From positions 1-64,000 of the forward strand of contig NZ_AZEA01000013.1 in the NCBI RefSeq assembly GCF_001435575.1: a stretch of 64,000 nt of DNA. The letters are read 5' to 3'. Shown here in pieces: positions 25,409-42,308 of this stretch. Each line of letters opens with the position of its first letter. The stretch's first letter is position 1. The notes under the pieces were generated by a model. It worked only from the letters and a program-made list of their open reading frames with translations, did no database searches and was not told the origin of the DNA. The position numbers were made by a program, and so were the translations under genes. The DNA comes from Lentilactobacillus sunkii DSM 19904. GTDB taxonomy: Bacteria; Bacillota; Bacilli; Lactobacillales; Lactobacillaceae.

Positions 25409-25945
25409 TTATTTTTGGAATTTCTTGATCACACCCCGCCGCCACTGGTATACGGTGGTTCTGGACGCTTCACACTCCCGGGCAATTTCTGAGATATTCA
25501 TGCCATAATCATATGCCAGTGTGAGATAGCGAGTCTCATCGGATGTCAGCTGCTTCATTAACTCATCGGAAAGAATGTGAGTGTCATAGTAGCCGACAGA
25601 CTTCTTCTTATCCTCAAGTTCTTCCATCAAGTTGGTTTTATCATCAGGTTCTTCTATGCCTGCGCGGTGGCGCATTTCTTTTCGGAGGTAATCCAACAGG
25701 TACCAATAGACACCCTGGTAGATGAAGACCAGATAGGAGTCGGGTTCTTTGTTGAGACCGATCGCCTGGATATACTTCTCGACGAACGCCACCATCCCCT
25801 CTTGCACCAGGTCATCATAGTAGGGATTGTCCCGGCGGATATATAGCTTCTTCAGCACGCCGTACACCACCAGTTCATGGTCGCCGTCCAGCAGAAAGTT
25901 GAATGCGTCTTGGTACAGTTCGATTTGCTTCTTGTCGTGTGTCAT
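25409..25945 (-). CDS. small sigma-70 family RNA polymerase sigma factor
   Basis: 178 residues from ATG 25945. Region 2-like helices are at about 30-90 (YYDDLVQEGMVAFVEKYI; VFIYQGVYWYLLDYLRKEMRH). A region 4 helix-turn-helix occupies the last 45 residues (LTSDETRYLTLAYDYGMNISEIARECEASRTTVYQWRRGV). Length and layout resemble ComX/SigH-like factors of lactobacilli, but competence control is not shown by the sequence. The DUF1659/DUF2922 pair just downstream may be part of the same unit or under its control. Confidence 0.75.
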   Translation of the reverse strand: MTHDKKQIELYQDAFNFLLDGDHELVVYGVLKKLYIRRDNPYYDDLVQEGMVAFVEKYIQAIGLNKEPDSYLVFIYQGVYWYLLDYLRKEMRHRAGIEEPDDKTNLMEELEDKKKSVGYYDTHILSDELMKQLTSDETRYLTLAYDYGMNISEIARECEASRTTVYQWRRGVIKKFQK

Positions 25946-30468: not shown

Positions 30469-30482
30469 AGTAAGCGCTTACT
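30469..30482 (-). promoter_or_regulatory. cre-like site upstream of the SDR gene
   Basis: AGTAAGCGCTTACT is a perfect 14-base palindrome with the core of the CcpA cre consensus (TGTAAGCGCTTACA). It lies 27 bases before the ATG, downstream of the likely promoter, where CcpA binding would block transcription. Confidence 0.75.
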
Positions 30483-30605
30483 TTTATGATGCAAGCATAC
30501 GCCATACTTTATAGTTTGTACAACAAATAGACGTTCGAGTTTTGTTGGGCTTATTAGTGCAACATATGAACATGGAATGCCACAGCACATATATAAACAT
30601 AGTTG

Positions 30606-30634
30606 TTGAAAGCTTTATACCAATTTGGTATAAT
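30606..30634 (+). promoter_or_regulatory. higBA promoter with operator palindrome
   Basis: -35 TTGAAA (30606-30611), 17-base spacer, -10 TATAAT (30629-30634). The perfect inverted repeat TTATACCAA-T-TTGGTATAA (30615-30633) covers the spacer and -10. This is the expected place for autorepression by the HigA antitoxin. Confidence 0.8.
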
Positions 30635-30652
30635 AACTTCGAGGTAAGAGAA

Positions 30653-30976
30653 ATGGAATACTTTGCTGAAACTAGGAAACTCGCTAAAACTTTAAACAAT
30701 CCACGACTACTAGTAAAAAGTTTTGGAACTGATCGTGCCAAAAGAATCCAAGCTCGTCTTGATGAATTTGACGGCGCACAAACTTTACAACAAATTCCTT
30801 CAGATCCCCCACCCCGCTGTCACCGATTACATAACAATTTAGAAGGTAAATTTGCAGTTGATGTAAGTCGTAATTTCCGCATAATTTTTGAAGGGTATGA
30901 TAAAAATGACCGGTTGTCAGTTATCAAGACTGACATTGTGACCATTCAAATATTATCGATTGAGGATTACCATTGA
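30653..30976 (+). CDS. HigB-type toxin (RelE/ParE superfamily)
   Basis: 107 residues from ATG 30653, after GAGGTAAGAG. The fold is that of the plasmid-maintenance killer family: AKRIQARLDEFDGAQTL, CHRLHNNLEGKFAVDVSRNFRIIFE, ending with VTIQILSIEDYH. HigB toxins cleave mRNA at the ribosome. The antitoxin gene follows after 14 bases (toxin first, the usual hig order). Confidence 0.88.
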   Translation: MEYFAETRKLAKTLNNPRLLVKSFGTDRAKRIQARLDEFDGAQTLQQIPSDPPPRCHRLHNNLEGKFAVDVSRNFRIIFEGYDKNDRLSVIKTDIVTIQILSIEDYH

Positions 30977-30990
30977 AGGAGTTGATTGAC

Positions 30991-31332
30991 ATGTTGCATC
31001 GAGAAAATCGAATTCGCCAATATCACACCAGTTCAGCTGCTGATTTGATTAAGGAAACAATGGACTTCTACCACATTACTCAAACCGATCTGGCTGGACG
31101 TCTTGGCGTTAGTCAAAAGCATATTTCTGAGATTCTCCAGCGTAAACGATTTATTAACGAAGTCTTGGCCTTACGAATTGAAAAGGTGATGGGAATTTCC
31201 AGCCAACTGTTGCTTAATTTAGATTCCAGCTTTAAGCTTCGTCGAGCAAAAGACGAAGAACTAGCCAACGATGATGAACAGCATAAATCAGACAACTTCC
31301 TTAAGAGATATGATTGGGTCAATATTGGCTAG
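30991..31332 (+). CDS. HigA-type antitoxin, XRE helix-turn-helix
   Basis: About 113 residues from ATG 30991, with AAGGAG nine bases upstream; an earlier TTG overlaps that ribosome binding site. The helix-turn-helix is ITQTDLAGRLGVSQKHISEILQRKR (in two parts, about residues 29-53). The C-terminal charged tail is longer than in the shortest HigA proteins. It should neutralise HigB and repress the promoter at 30606-30634. Confidence 0.88.
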   Translation: MLHRENRIRQYHTSSAADLIKETMDFYHITQTDLAGRLGVSQKHISEILQRKRFINEVLALRIEKVMGISSQLLLNLDSSFKLRRAKDEELANDDEQHKSDNFLKRYDWVNIG

Positions 31333-31944: not shown

Positions 31945-32042
31945 ATTTTCAGTTCATTGAAAATATTGAGCAAAAATGCCAAAATTTTCAGTCAACTGAA
32001 AATTTAAGCATTTTTCGTTCTAATTTTCACTTCATAGAAAAA
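31945..32042. repeat. three operator-like palindromes at exact 39-base spacing
   Basis: attttcagttcattgaaaat (31945-31964), attttcagtcaactgaaaat (31984-32003) and attttcacttcatagaaaaa (32023-32042). The first two are near-perfect palindromes; the third is degenerate. The spacers differ from each other. The middle copy is embedded in a longer palindrome (AAAAATGC .. GCATTTTT). They lie between the HPr-like gene and the start of the 31414 gene. Confidence 0.75.
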
Positions 32043-32043
32043 A

Positions 32044-32068
32044 GGACGCAGTCAATCTGACCGCATCC
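32044..32068 (-). terminator. terminator of the HPr-like gene
   Basis: Stem GGACGCAGTC / GACCGCATCC (one mismatch) followed by six T on the minus strand; the T-run runs into the third palindrome copy. Confidence 0.8.
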
Positions 32069-32095
32069 CCACTCTACATATTCAGTAATGCCAGA

Positions 32096-32383
32096 CTAAT
32101 CGGCGTCAACCGTAACTTCCTGGACAACGCCATCTTTTTCCAAATGTTCCTTGATCCCGGCAATGGCTTCTTTTTCGTCATCACCACTGGTTGATATTTC
32201 GATGTAGCTGCCCTGCGGAATCCCCAACGACATCACACCCATAATGGACTTTAGATTAACTGTCTTGCCATTATAAGTCACAGTGACGGCCGATACGTAA
32301 TTTTGTGCTGCCATGACCAGGCGGGTTGCCGGCCGTGACATGATACCCGTTTCTGCTAGAACCTTGAATTTGTTCGTCTCCAT
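32096..32383 (-). CDS. HPr-like protein lacking the catalytic histidine (Crh-like)
   Basis: 95 residues. The protein aligns along its whole length with HPr: ETGIMSRPATRLV at the active-site loop and NLKSIMGVMSLGI at the regulatory site. HPr carries His15 in GIHARPAT; here residue 15 is Met (codon ATG) while Arg17 is kept. Ser46, the HPr kinase target, is retained at exactly position 46. That pattern is that of Bacillus Crh, which has Gln15 and acts only as a CcpA co-regulator. It therefore should not carry phosphate for sugar uptake. No ptsI follows it. The C-terminal extension (DGVVQEVTVDAD) is somewhat longer than in HPr. A cre-like site lies upstream. Confidence 0.85.
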   Translation of the reverse strand: METNKFKVLAETGIMSRPATRLVMAAQNYVSAVTVTYNGKTVNLKSIMGVMSLGIPQGSYIEISTSGDDEKEAIAGIKEHLEKDGVVQEVTVDAD

Positions 32384-32734
32384 ATGAATTCGCCTCTTAG
32401 ATTGATTGTGAGTAAAAGTTCAACTAATATATTAAAATGTATTGTAAGCGTTTTCTAAAAAATAATCAATAGGTCTAGCCCATATTTAGTAAACTTAGAG
32501 GAAAAATATAAGAGGTTCGTGAAATTTCATAAAGATTTTTCTGATTTTATCGAACAATCAACATTTTGATTGTTCTTGTCAACCGTTCCAAGGGAATCTT
32601 TAGGCTTCCCATACCAAATCTTTAACACTATTTCAGTCTGAAATCTTTCGTCATTGGATCACAAATTCACTGTAACCGTCCTGCAAAGTTCATCCATTAT
32701 GATGCAGTCACCAAATAAAAAATGAGGTGTTCTT
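32384..32734. other. divergent intergenic region, HPr-like gene / NlpC-P60 gene
   Basis: A 351-base gap. It holds a cre-like site (32442-32456), AT-rich promoter candidates, and a small hairpin AACAATCA / TGATTGTT at about 32554-32575 in the NlpC/P60 leader. No gene is seen. Confidence 0.5.
32442..32456 (+). promoter_or_regulatory. cre-like site upstream of the HPr-like gene
   Basis: TTGTAAGCGTTTTCT fits the cre consensus WTGNAANCGNWNNCW. It lies about 60-75 bases before the HPr-like ATG. Confidence 0.6.
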
Positions 32735-39425: not shown

Positions 39426-40793
39426 TTAATAGTTTCCTTGAATAACCAGCGTCTTATTAGCTGATACATAACGGCCATTAGTCAATTGATAACGCGTGGT
39501 CAAATTATGTTTAACCAGCTTCTTAACGTGAAGCCGGGTGCCCTTCTTGTAATGGGCAGTCTTGCCGGTTAAGCTGGTTGTCTTGTACGCGTTGACGCCA
39601 CCTTTGGCAATCACTGTGATCTTGTTGTTCTTAGGCATTGAACGGTAATACAGATTCAGCACATAGGCCCGTCTAGCTGTGATATAGCCAGTCTTGCCAT
39701 AGTTCCTCGAACCCTGGTTGGCATCACGAACTTTATATCGGAGTGTGCCGGTATTGGAACGGGCATAGCCAGTCACAATAAACATTGGGCGGTTAACCCG
39801 CTTTTGTTTGTTGTATTTGGCAACCCGATTATGCTTCGTAAAGTTTGGTGAGCTGTACATGTAGATTGACTTAACCGCATAAACTGCCGTCTTCTTTACA
39901 TTGGCATATTCCGGCAGGCCGGTCTTGCCATCTGCTGGTTTGTTGGTGGTTGGATTCCAGTATGGATTGGTAGGGGTCGTTGGTGTCTGTGTTGACGTTG
40001 GGGTTGGAGTTGGTGTAACAGGGGTTACAGGAATTGGCACAAGGTGAATCGTCATCTTAGCATTGGCCTTACTACTTAAGTCATACCTGACTGGTGAGTT
40101 AGTGACCAATTGATAACCGGATGGCGCAACTGGAGTGTACGCTCCCTTTTCGCCGAGAAATCCTTTAATCGTATCAGTTTTGATAAGGGAACCATTGTTA
40201 TCGTTGACGTATTCGACGGGGATGGTGGCTTCCTGGTAGTCGTAGACAACAGTGAAGGAGGTTGGAACTCCCCCACTGGCTAAGTAGGACAATGAAACCG
40301 CATTGGAACGATAGAAGGTAATTCCGTATCTCATAAAGTCAAAAAATTTTGCCAGACCATCACTCATGCTAGTAATGGTGACACCAAGTTTCTTTTGGAG
40401 ATCTTTCTTACTTTCTGAATTAGTTGTTGGCACACGATTGTCTATATAAGTTTGATAGGCATCAACCGTTTGATCTTTTTCATTTACTGTAAACTTTCTT
40501 GATTTGTAGACCGGTGACAAGTCAGAATTGTCATACTGCAATACAACGTTATTTAAAGTGTCCGCAACCGGATACCCCGGAACAGTTACATTCACATTCT
40601 TAACACCAGTATTGTATGTAATGGTTTGTGCTTCCTTTAATACATTTCCTTGAGTATCGATAATGTTAATGGTTGCTTTAGCCCCAATTGGATCAACATT
40701 GGCTTGTGCATTCGAACCGCTAACCAAAAATGCCAGTAGCACAGCCCCCACGGCCAGCACCATCAAACTGAATTTATTAAGTCGTTTAATCAT
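39426..40793 (-). CDS. secreted MucBP-like/DUF5776 surface protein
   Basis: 455 residues. Signal peptide about 1-31 (ends NAQA). Residues 33-190 are an N-terminal domain of unknown type, followed by a MucBP-like segment (VEYVNDNNGSLIKTDTIKGFLGEKG..YTPVAPSGYQLV). A Pro/Thr spacer (TPVTPTPTPTSTQTPTTP) comes next, and the C-terminal 150 residues are DUF5776 (RYKVRDANQG..KTGYITARRAYV; AHYKKGTRLHVKKLVKHNLTTRYQL). It has no LPXTG; the very basic DUF5776 end probably binds the wall or teichoic acid. Tandem paralogue at 40956. Confidence 0.82.
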   Translation of the reverse strand: MIKRLNKFSLMVLAVGAVLLAFLVSGSNAQANVDPIGAKATINIIDTQGNVLKEAQTITYNTGVKNVNVTVPGYPVADTLNNVVLQYDNSDLSPVYKSRKFTVNEKDQTVDAYQTYIDNRVPTTNSESKKDLQKKLGVTITSMSDGLAKFFDFMRYGITFYRSNAVSLSYLASGGVPTSFTVVYDYQEATIPVEYVNDNNGSLIKTDTIKGFLGEKGAYTPVAPSGYQLVTNSPVRYDLSSKANAKMTIHLVPIPVTPVTPTPTPTSTQTPTTPTNPYWNPTTNKPADGKTGLPEYANVKKTAVYAVKSIYMYSSPNFTKHNRVAKYNKQKRVNRPMFIVTGYARSNTGTLRYKVRDANQGSRNYGKTGYITARRAYVLNLYYRSMPKNNKITVIAKGGVNAYKTTSLTGKTAHYKKGTRLHVKKLVKHNLTTRYQLTNGRYVSANKTLVIQGNY

Positions 40794-40910
40794 TCAAATC
40801 CCCCCATAATCAATGCACGATCAATTATTTAGTTTAAGCATACAAATAAGTGTTTAGGAATATTTTAACAAATTATGGCATCAAAATAAAAATTATGGTT
40901 TGTAAACGAA

Positions 40911-40943
40911 AAAGGACTCGCAGCAAAATGCTCCGAGTCCTTT
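40911..40943 (-). terminator. terminator of the 40956 gene
   Basis: Stem AAAGGACTCG.AGC / GCT.CGAGTCCTTT with T-run on the minus strand. Confidence 0.85.
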
Positions 40944-40955
40944 GGTTTCACTATC

Positions 40956-42308
40956 TTAATAATTTCCTTGAATAACCAGCGTCTTATTAGCTGATACATA
41001 ACGGCCATTAGTCAACTGATAACGAGTGGTCAAATTATGTTTAACGAGCTTCTTAACGTGAAGCCGACTGCCCTTCTTGTAGTGGGCAGTCTTACCGGTT
41101 AAGCTGGCCGTCTTGTATGAGTTGACGCCACCTTTGGCAATAACGGTGATCTTGTTGTTCTTGGGCATTGAACGGTAATATAGGTTCAATACGTAGGCAC
41201 GCTTAGCAGTGATATACCCAGTCTTGCCATAGTTCTTGGTACCTTCATTGATATCACGAACTTTGAATCGCAATGCACCATTATTGGAGCGATTGTAACC
41301 GGTGATGACAAACATTGGCCGGTTAATCCGCTTCTGTTTTGGATACTTAGCAATCCGGTCATTCTTGTTAAATGTCGGTGAACTGTACATATAAATTGGC
41401 TTTACGGCATAAACGGCAGTCTTCTTCACATTTGCATATTCCGGCAGGCCGGTCTTGCCATCAGCCGGTTTGTTGGTAGTTGGATTCCAATATGGATTAG
41501 TTGGAGTTACCGGTGTTGGAGTTGGTGTCGGTGTGACTGGTGTTACAGGAATCGGCACGATGTGAATTGTCATCTTGGCATTACTCTTGCTGTTCAAGTC
41601 ATAACTGACTGGTGAGCTGGTAACCAACTGATAGCCGGATGGAACAACTGGTGTGTATGTCCCCTTTTTGCCGAGGAAGCCTTTAATCGTATCCGTTTTG
41701 ACAACTGCACCATTGTTGTCGTTGATGTATTCAACGGGCATTGTAGCTTCTTGGTAGTCGTAAACGACATTGATGGTCTCAGGAACACCCATAGAAGCTG
41801 CTGCAGCAAATGGGTCGCCCGGGTTGGATGCGAATGTAATTCCCAACCCGTATACTTCAACGATTTTTGCAAGTCCCTCATTAACCGTGGCCAAGCTTCC
41901 AAATTGTGCTTCAAGTGTAGCCTTAGAAAGTTCTTGGTGGTCGGATGATGACACATAGGTTTGGGTGCTGTCCAAGTTACCCGTTTTGTCATTAACCTCG
42001 TAGATACTGGTCTTGTAGTTTGGAGATAATTTGGAATTAAACAAGAAATCAACTTCATGTAATGTGGTATTTACATCATATCCAGGAATCTTTACATCCA
42101 CATTCTTCAAACCAGGCTTGTATGTATTTACCTGTGGATCCCTTAACTTATTCCCTTTTGTATCAACAATATTAATGGTAGCTTCGGCTCCAGTTGGATC
42201 AACTATCCCAGATGCAGCTTGTGCATTCGAACCACCAACCAAAAATGCCAGCAGCACAGCCCCCAACGCCAACATCATCAAACTAAATTTATTTAGTCGT
42301 TTAATCAT
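40956..42308 (-). CDS. secreted MucBP-like/DUF5776 surface protein (paralogue)
   Basis: 450 residues, with the same layout as the 39426 protein: signal peptide ending NAQA, N-terminal domain, MucBP-like segment (VEYINDNNGAVVKTDTIKGFLG), Pro/Thr spacer, then DUF5776. The C-terminal 160 residues are almost identical between the two, the N-terminal domains much less so, which suggests duplication followed by selection or exchange at the exposed end. Intact. Confidence 0.82.
   Translation of the reverse strand: MIKRLNKFSLMMLALGAVLLAFLVGGSNAQAASGIVDPTGAEATINIVDTKGNKLRDPQVNTYKPGLKNVDVKIPGYDVNTTLHEVDFLFNSKLSPNYKTSIYEVNDKTGNLDSTQTYVSSSDHQELSKATLEAQFGSLATVNEGLAKIVEVYGLGITFASNPGDPFAAAASMGVPETINVVYDYQEATMPVEYINDNNGAVVKTDTIKGFLGKKGTYTPVVPSGYQLVTSSPVSYDLNSKSNAKMTIHIVPIPVTPVTPTPTPTPVTPTNPYWNPTTNKPADGKTGLPEYANVKKTAVYAVKPIYMYSSPTFNKNDRIAKYPKQKRINRPMFVITGYNRSNNGALRFKVRDINEGTKNYGKTGYITAKRAYVLNLYYRSMPKNNKITVIAKGGVNSYKTASLTGKTAHYKKGSRLHVKKLVKHNLTTRYQLTNGRYVSANKTLVIQGNY

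Follow-up and report, generated by a model that had tools for sequence, protein, structure and literature searches.

The window analyzed here, a stretch of 64,000 nucleotides from Lentilactobacillus sunkii DSM 19904, carries a gene for an HPr paralog in which residue 15 is methionine (Table 1). The codons at residues 15 and 46 and a match to the HPr-fold family PF00381 (86 bits; cut-off 23) bear out the HPr-like frame with Met15 and an intact Ser46 that had been described in the initial annotation. The alignment with solved HPr structures was gap-free over residues 1-88, as had also been claimed, and Ser46 lies within LKSIMGVMS, a context unaltered compared to HPr. An AlphaFold2 model with a mean pLDDT of 87.6 superposed on Bacillus subtilis HPr (1sph) with a Z of 17.9 and an rmsd of 0.7 A over 87 residues. 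With 116 bits, the paralog passed the NCBIfam HPr equivalog model NF010352, whose cut-off is 110, and by this score it would receive a plain HPr annotation and thus be hidden from view.

Table 1. Features of the paralog gene and other genes discussed, in coordinates of the window
Feature	Position	Strand	Remarks
CDS, His15-less HPr paralog	32096..32383	-	95 aa, ATG start
Met15 codon ATG	32341-32339	-	HPr has His at residue 15
Ser46 codon TCC	32248-32246	-	read from sequence
Ribosome-binding site TAAGAGG	32393..32399	-	upstream of the paralog CDS, read from sequence
-10 hexamer TACAAT	32441..32446	-	TACA(A/C)T in 11/11 orthologs
-35 hexamer TTGATT	32464..32469	-	TTGA(T/A)T in 11/11 orthologs
Cre-like candidate CcpA operator TAGAAAACGCTTACAA	32442..32457	-	in spacer, overlaps the -10 box
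Intrinsic terminator	32042..32070	-	directly 3' of the gene; 13-bp stem, T run
HigB-like toxin and HigA-like antitoxin genes	30542-31332	+	4-base overlap
Sigma factor-like gene	25409-25945	-	178 aa
Two adjacent genes for secreted proteins	39426-42308	-	~450 aa each

A search for a separate ptsH with His15, which the initial annotation had proposed as a check, located a canonical gene (GIHARPAT) in the same genome (G000:C29:7547-7813), followed directly by a ptsI of 574 aa that looks complete. The paralog is hence not the only HPr gene of the genome; that it might be the only one had been named as the circumstance that would speak against a Crh-like role. No ptsI adjoins the paralog in its own gene neighborhood. 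The genes hprK (contig C1) and ccpA (contig C23) are present in one copy each, HprK and CcpA were found in all 24 Lentilactobacillus genomes, and the CcpA segment YDIGAV[AS]MR, which we take to be the part touching HPr(Ser-P), is intact. No PF02378 (PTS_EIIC) permease was found in this genome and only a single EIID, while ptsH, ptsI, and hprK are intact. The PTS is retained here with very few permeases, and with no PF02378 permease and one EIID, HPr in this organism probably serves regulation more than transport. No clear correlation was seen between the presence of the paralog and the loss of PTS permeases.

His15 within GIHARPA, the mark of a functional PTS phosphocarrier HPr, is absent from the paralog, and Met15 was found in 11 of 11 orthologs. 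No histidine is common to all Met15 orthologs, six of them have none at all, and cysteine is absent from every one. With methionine at residue 15 and no conserved histidine in the family, normal phosphate uptake from enzyme I is impossible, and the PTS phosphorylation site is missing as initially annotated. The lack of a shared histidine and of any cysteine also leaves enzyme I without a plausible alternative target on the paralog. While the intact HPr fold would suit a protein that still carries PTS phosphate via another residue, the same two observations make such a carrier highly improbable.

Met15 orthologs occurred in 11 of the 24 Lentilactobacillus genomes, with identities of 69-80% in one subgroup and 48-54% in the other. 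They form a monophyletic clade in the HPr tree (97% UFBoot), which a profile search of 398 Lactobacillaceae genomes found confined to Lentilactobacillus. The pattern GIM[SA]RPAT, searched as an exact DNA-level match that overlooks serines encoded by AGY, was not found in 398 other genomes of the class. Plasmid-borne horizontal spread was considered and rejected, as no plasmid record matched at >=60% identity.

Selection on the paralog is purifying. The reading frame is open in every carrier, omega is about 0.04-0.14 between orthologs where dS is unsaturated, and pN/pS is 0.11-0.24 for the remaining comparisons. The alignment of Met15 orthologs holds 36 invariant columns, including Met15, Arg17, and Ser46. 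Synonymous divergence is higher in the paralog than in ptsH. Eleven of the 24 genomes of the genus lack any second HPr, so the function of the paralog is not essential to catabolite control. This absence and the variation of residue 15 among the paralogs of the genus (Met, Arg, Thr) would agree with a decaying or functionless HPr duplicate, but open frames, low dN/dS, the invariant columns, and the conserved promoter and operator described below already contradict decay, which is scarcely credible.

The segment LKSIMGVMS (residues 44-52) is invariant in all 11 Met15 orthologs. These orthologs and the 24 HPrs of the genus agree at residues 44-52, 17-20, 22, 23, and 54, with Arg17, Pro18, Ala19, Thr20, and Val23 identical throughout, whereas positions 15, 21, 24, 25, 27, 56, and 59 are altered in the Met15 orthologs. 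Based on CcpA-HPr and HprK-HPr structures, we take residues 44-52, 17-20, and 23 to be the HprK/CcpA contact area, while His15 and helix 1 presumably form the enzyme I face, as in enzyme I-HPr structures. The pattern of kept and altered residues is that which would be expected if contacts to HprK and CcpA were retained and the enzyme I face were freed. A decoy or buffer that vies with HPr for HprK/P and does not bind CcpA would tune the share of true HPr that is Ser-phosphorylated and withheld from the PTS. The Ser46 segment identical to that of HPr, the lack of a conserved histidine, and an expression predicted to follow the CcpA state would all fit such a protein. However, Arg17, Thr20, and Met48/Met51, which are presumably also CcpA contacts, are kept without exception, and a synonymous divergence above that of ptsH points to less biased codon usage and to a lower expression, which would be unfavourable for titration. 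The decoy is therefore regarded as unlikely.

All 11 ortholog promoters share the arrangement TTGA(T/A)T-N17-TACA(A/C)T with a spacer of exactly 17 bases. A cre-like sequence fills the spacer and the -10 box, its core CGCTTACA is invariant in 11 of 11 orthologs, and the mean information from -21 to +10 is 1.50 bits per position compared to 0.64 in the flanks (11 orthologs). This combination of promoter and cre occurs once in the whole genome. The site in L. sunkii differs from WTGNNARCGNWWWCAW by one mismatch. Within the window, 11 matches with at most one mismatch to WTGNNARCGNWWWCAW were counted against 7.6 +/- 3.4 expected, which is chance level, and an argument for CcpA regulation from the window alone was accordingly dropped; the site is convincing because it is conserved in 11/11 orthologs. 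Of the four cre-like sites initially listed, only the one at 32442 holds, while those at 30469, 55964, and 60382 deviate from the consensus by more than one mismatch. The suggested link to CcpA thus keeps its conserved cre-like operator at the promoter and loses the three other sites as support. A regulation shared with ptsH was rejected, as the best cre-like sites upstream of Lentilactobacillus ptsH genes have 2-3 mismatches. A cre inside the core promoter normally means repression by CcpA, and its position here predicts CcpA repression of the paralog gene. The tie to CcpA is predicted to be a feedback link, going beyond simple membership of the CcpA pathway.

The terminator (-23.9 kcal/mol for a 66-nt stretch, z -4.3) makes the gene probably monocistronic. 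Its neighbors are NlpC/P60 and TenA genes or, in the other subgroup, sbcCD-like genes. An operon partner was therefore ruled out, since the neighbors differ between the two subgroups and the terminator follows directly, and gene order names no partner. Other genes of the window include the toxin-antitoxin pair, whose HigB-like and HigA-like family scores are both just under the curated cut-offs. The 178-aa protein resembles, by eye, a ComX/SigH-type sigma factor with a C-terminal HTH and is conserved in the same neighborhood of five genomes. The two secreted proteins are closely similar and probably a tandem duplication, with MucBP-like and C-terminal repeats recognized by eye.

The reading favored here, with moderate confidence, is that the paralog is a regulatory-only HPr which is phosphorylated at Ser46 by HprK and acts as a second CcpA co-repressor under CcpA feedback. 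HPr kinase/phosphorylase would most likely phosphorylate Ser46 at high levels of glycolytic intermediates, and the Ser-phosphorylated paralog would most likely bind CcpA beside HPr(Ser-P). Such a co-repressor would be immune to competition from His15 phosphorylation and unaffected by the PTS state. CcpA may in turn repress the paralog gene via the core-promoter cre; the paralog would then be produced mostly under relaxed repression, and negative feedback would limit its supply. The binding to HprK and CcpA is predicted from conserved residues, and these same residues would also suit other partners of HPr(Ser-P), which weighs against the co-repressor role. It is also odd for a main co-repressor that CcpA repression would lower the paralog exactly when Ser46 phosphorylation peaks. 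A role of HPr position 15 in CcpA signaling is reported by Horstmann et al. 2007 (title as cited in PMC4591507), which is another point against a co-repressor with Met15.

Given the predicted CcpA feedback, it is attractive to read the paralog as active in its unphosphorylated form in poor sugar. It may be a Ser46-switched effector of a non-CcpA target (an enzyme or, in inducer exclusion, a sugar permease) and would be most active when unphosphorylated and abundant, i.e., with CcpA repression off. The cre embedded in the promoter predicts high expression in poor sugar, and a genus poor in PTS permeases would benefit from an HPr-type control of its non-PTS uptake. A precedent is given by Crh, which in Bacillus inhibits methylglyoxal synthase (MgsA) when unphosphorylated (PMC9631020). 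However, no conserved neighbor points to a partner, and the whole CcpA/HprK contact area is conserved, so that an effector role is considered possible but rather doubtful.

Further HPr paralogs without His15 were found in two other Lentilactobacillus species. One carries Arg15 (genome G013, L167:7479-7760) and the other Thr15 with a TTG start (genome G019, L168:7703-7966), both with Ser46 kept. The Thr15 gene has a consensus cre without mismatch between TTGAAA and TACAAT. In a species tree of HprK and CcpA, the genomes with a second copy all cluster within a single part of the genus, where the Arg15 species is basal and the copy appears to have been lost several times. One old duplication with later changes of residue 15 is possible for the Met15, Arg15, and Thr15 forms; the HPr tree does not unite them, so that independent origins are possible as well. 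A divergent HPr-like protein without His15 occurred in 13 of 15 Secundilactobacillus genomes (L184-L196), reading GGLTGDxVNQLTNEL ... ANSSLGVMSLGVP or close to it, with the Ser46 segment present. No consistent cre was found upstream of these genes with the start codon as chosen, and their products are a separate, uncharacterised family. A second HPr copy in one other genus (G193) was discounted as a further case: with His15 retained, it is a paralog of the ordinary type.

Counting the three Lentilactobacillus forms and the Secundilactobacillus family as Ser46-only forms, a wider reading is put forward tentatively, in which HPr was repeatedly duplicated into Ser46-only signallers in PTS-poor heterofermentative lactobacilli. 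In Lentilactobacillus the gene would be repressed by CcpA itself, and its product would accumulate in poor sugar and act unphosphorylated, with a timing opposite to that of HPr(Ser-P). Crh has so far been treated as a Bacillus-type oddity. If a conserved Ser46-only HPr evolved separately in lactobacilli, the transport and regulation duties of HPr were split more than once, also where PTS transport is nearly gone. It is also relevant to the relaxed catabolite control seen in heterofermentative lactobacilli, a trait of importance in silage and in the fermentation of mixed sugars.

The initial annotation had stated that no such protein is commonly described in lactobacilli, and searches of the open-access literature indeed turned up no account of an HPr without His15 from these bacteria. 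Compared to the HPr of Lactobacillaceae (ptsH), the paralog has an identity of 50% and shares the fold, an identical Ser46 region, and the passed equivalog model. It differs from HPr by the absence of His15, an altered enzyme I face (positions 21, 24, 25, and 27), a C-terminal tail that is 7-10 residues longer, the lack of a ptsI partner, a cre-embedded promoter, and faster evolution. With NPr and other regulatory HPr paralogs it has in common that a second HPr is given over to regulation. However, NPr keeps the active-site histidine and works in a parallel phosphorelay, and the paralog reached only 30.6 bits on the NPr model against a cut-off of 119.

Crh of Bacillus and Geobacillus likewise has the HPr fold, a residue 15 other than histidine, and an authentic HPr alongside, and it retains Arg17 and Ser46 with KSIMG. 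In contrast, residue 15 is glutamine in Crh and methionine in the paralog, which is 36% identical to Crh in the fold alignment compared to about 51-53% to HPr; the B. subtilis Crh reference sequence was confirmed against the PDB. On NF010354/PRK13782, which we take to be the Crh model, the paralog scored 69.8 bits and failed the cut-off of 123. The gene order around crh in Bacillus is yvcJ-yvcK-yvcL-crh, while the paralog gene stands alone without a yvc operon, has its own promoter with a conserved cre, and was seen solely in Lentilactobacillus among the genomes searched. In the tree, which is based on a protein of 88 residues, short for deep ancestry, the Met15 clade and B. subtilis Crh are not placed together. 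The label Crh-like, as given in the initial annotation, therefore stands for a non-His residue 15 combined with Ser46, while membership of the Crh family is not supported, given the failed cut-off and the lack of a shared gene order. The Crh-like paralog of Lentilactobacillus probably arose independently of Bacillus Crh.
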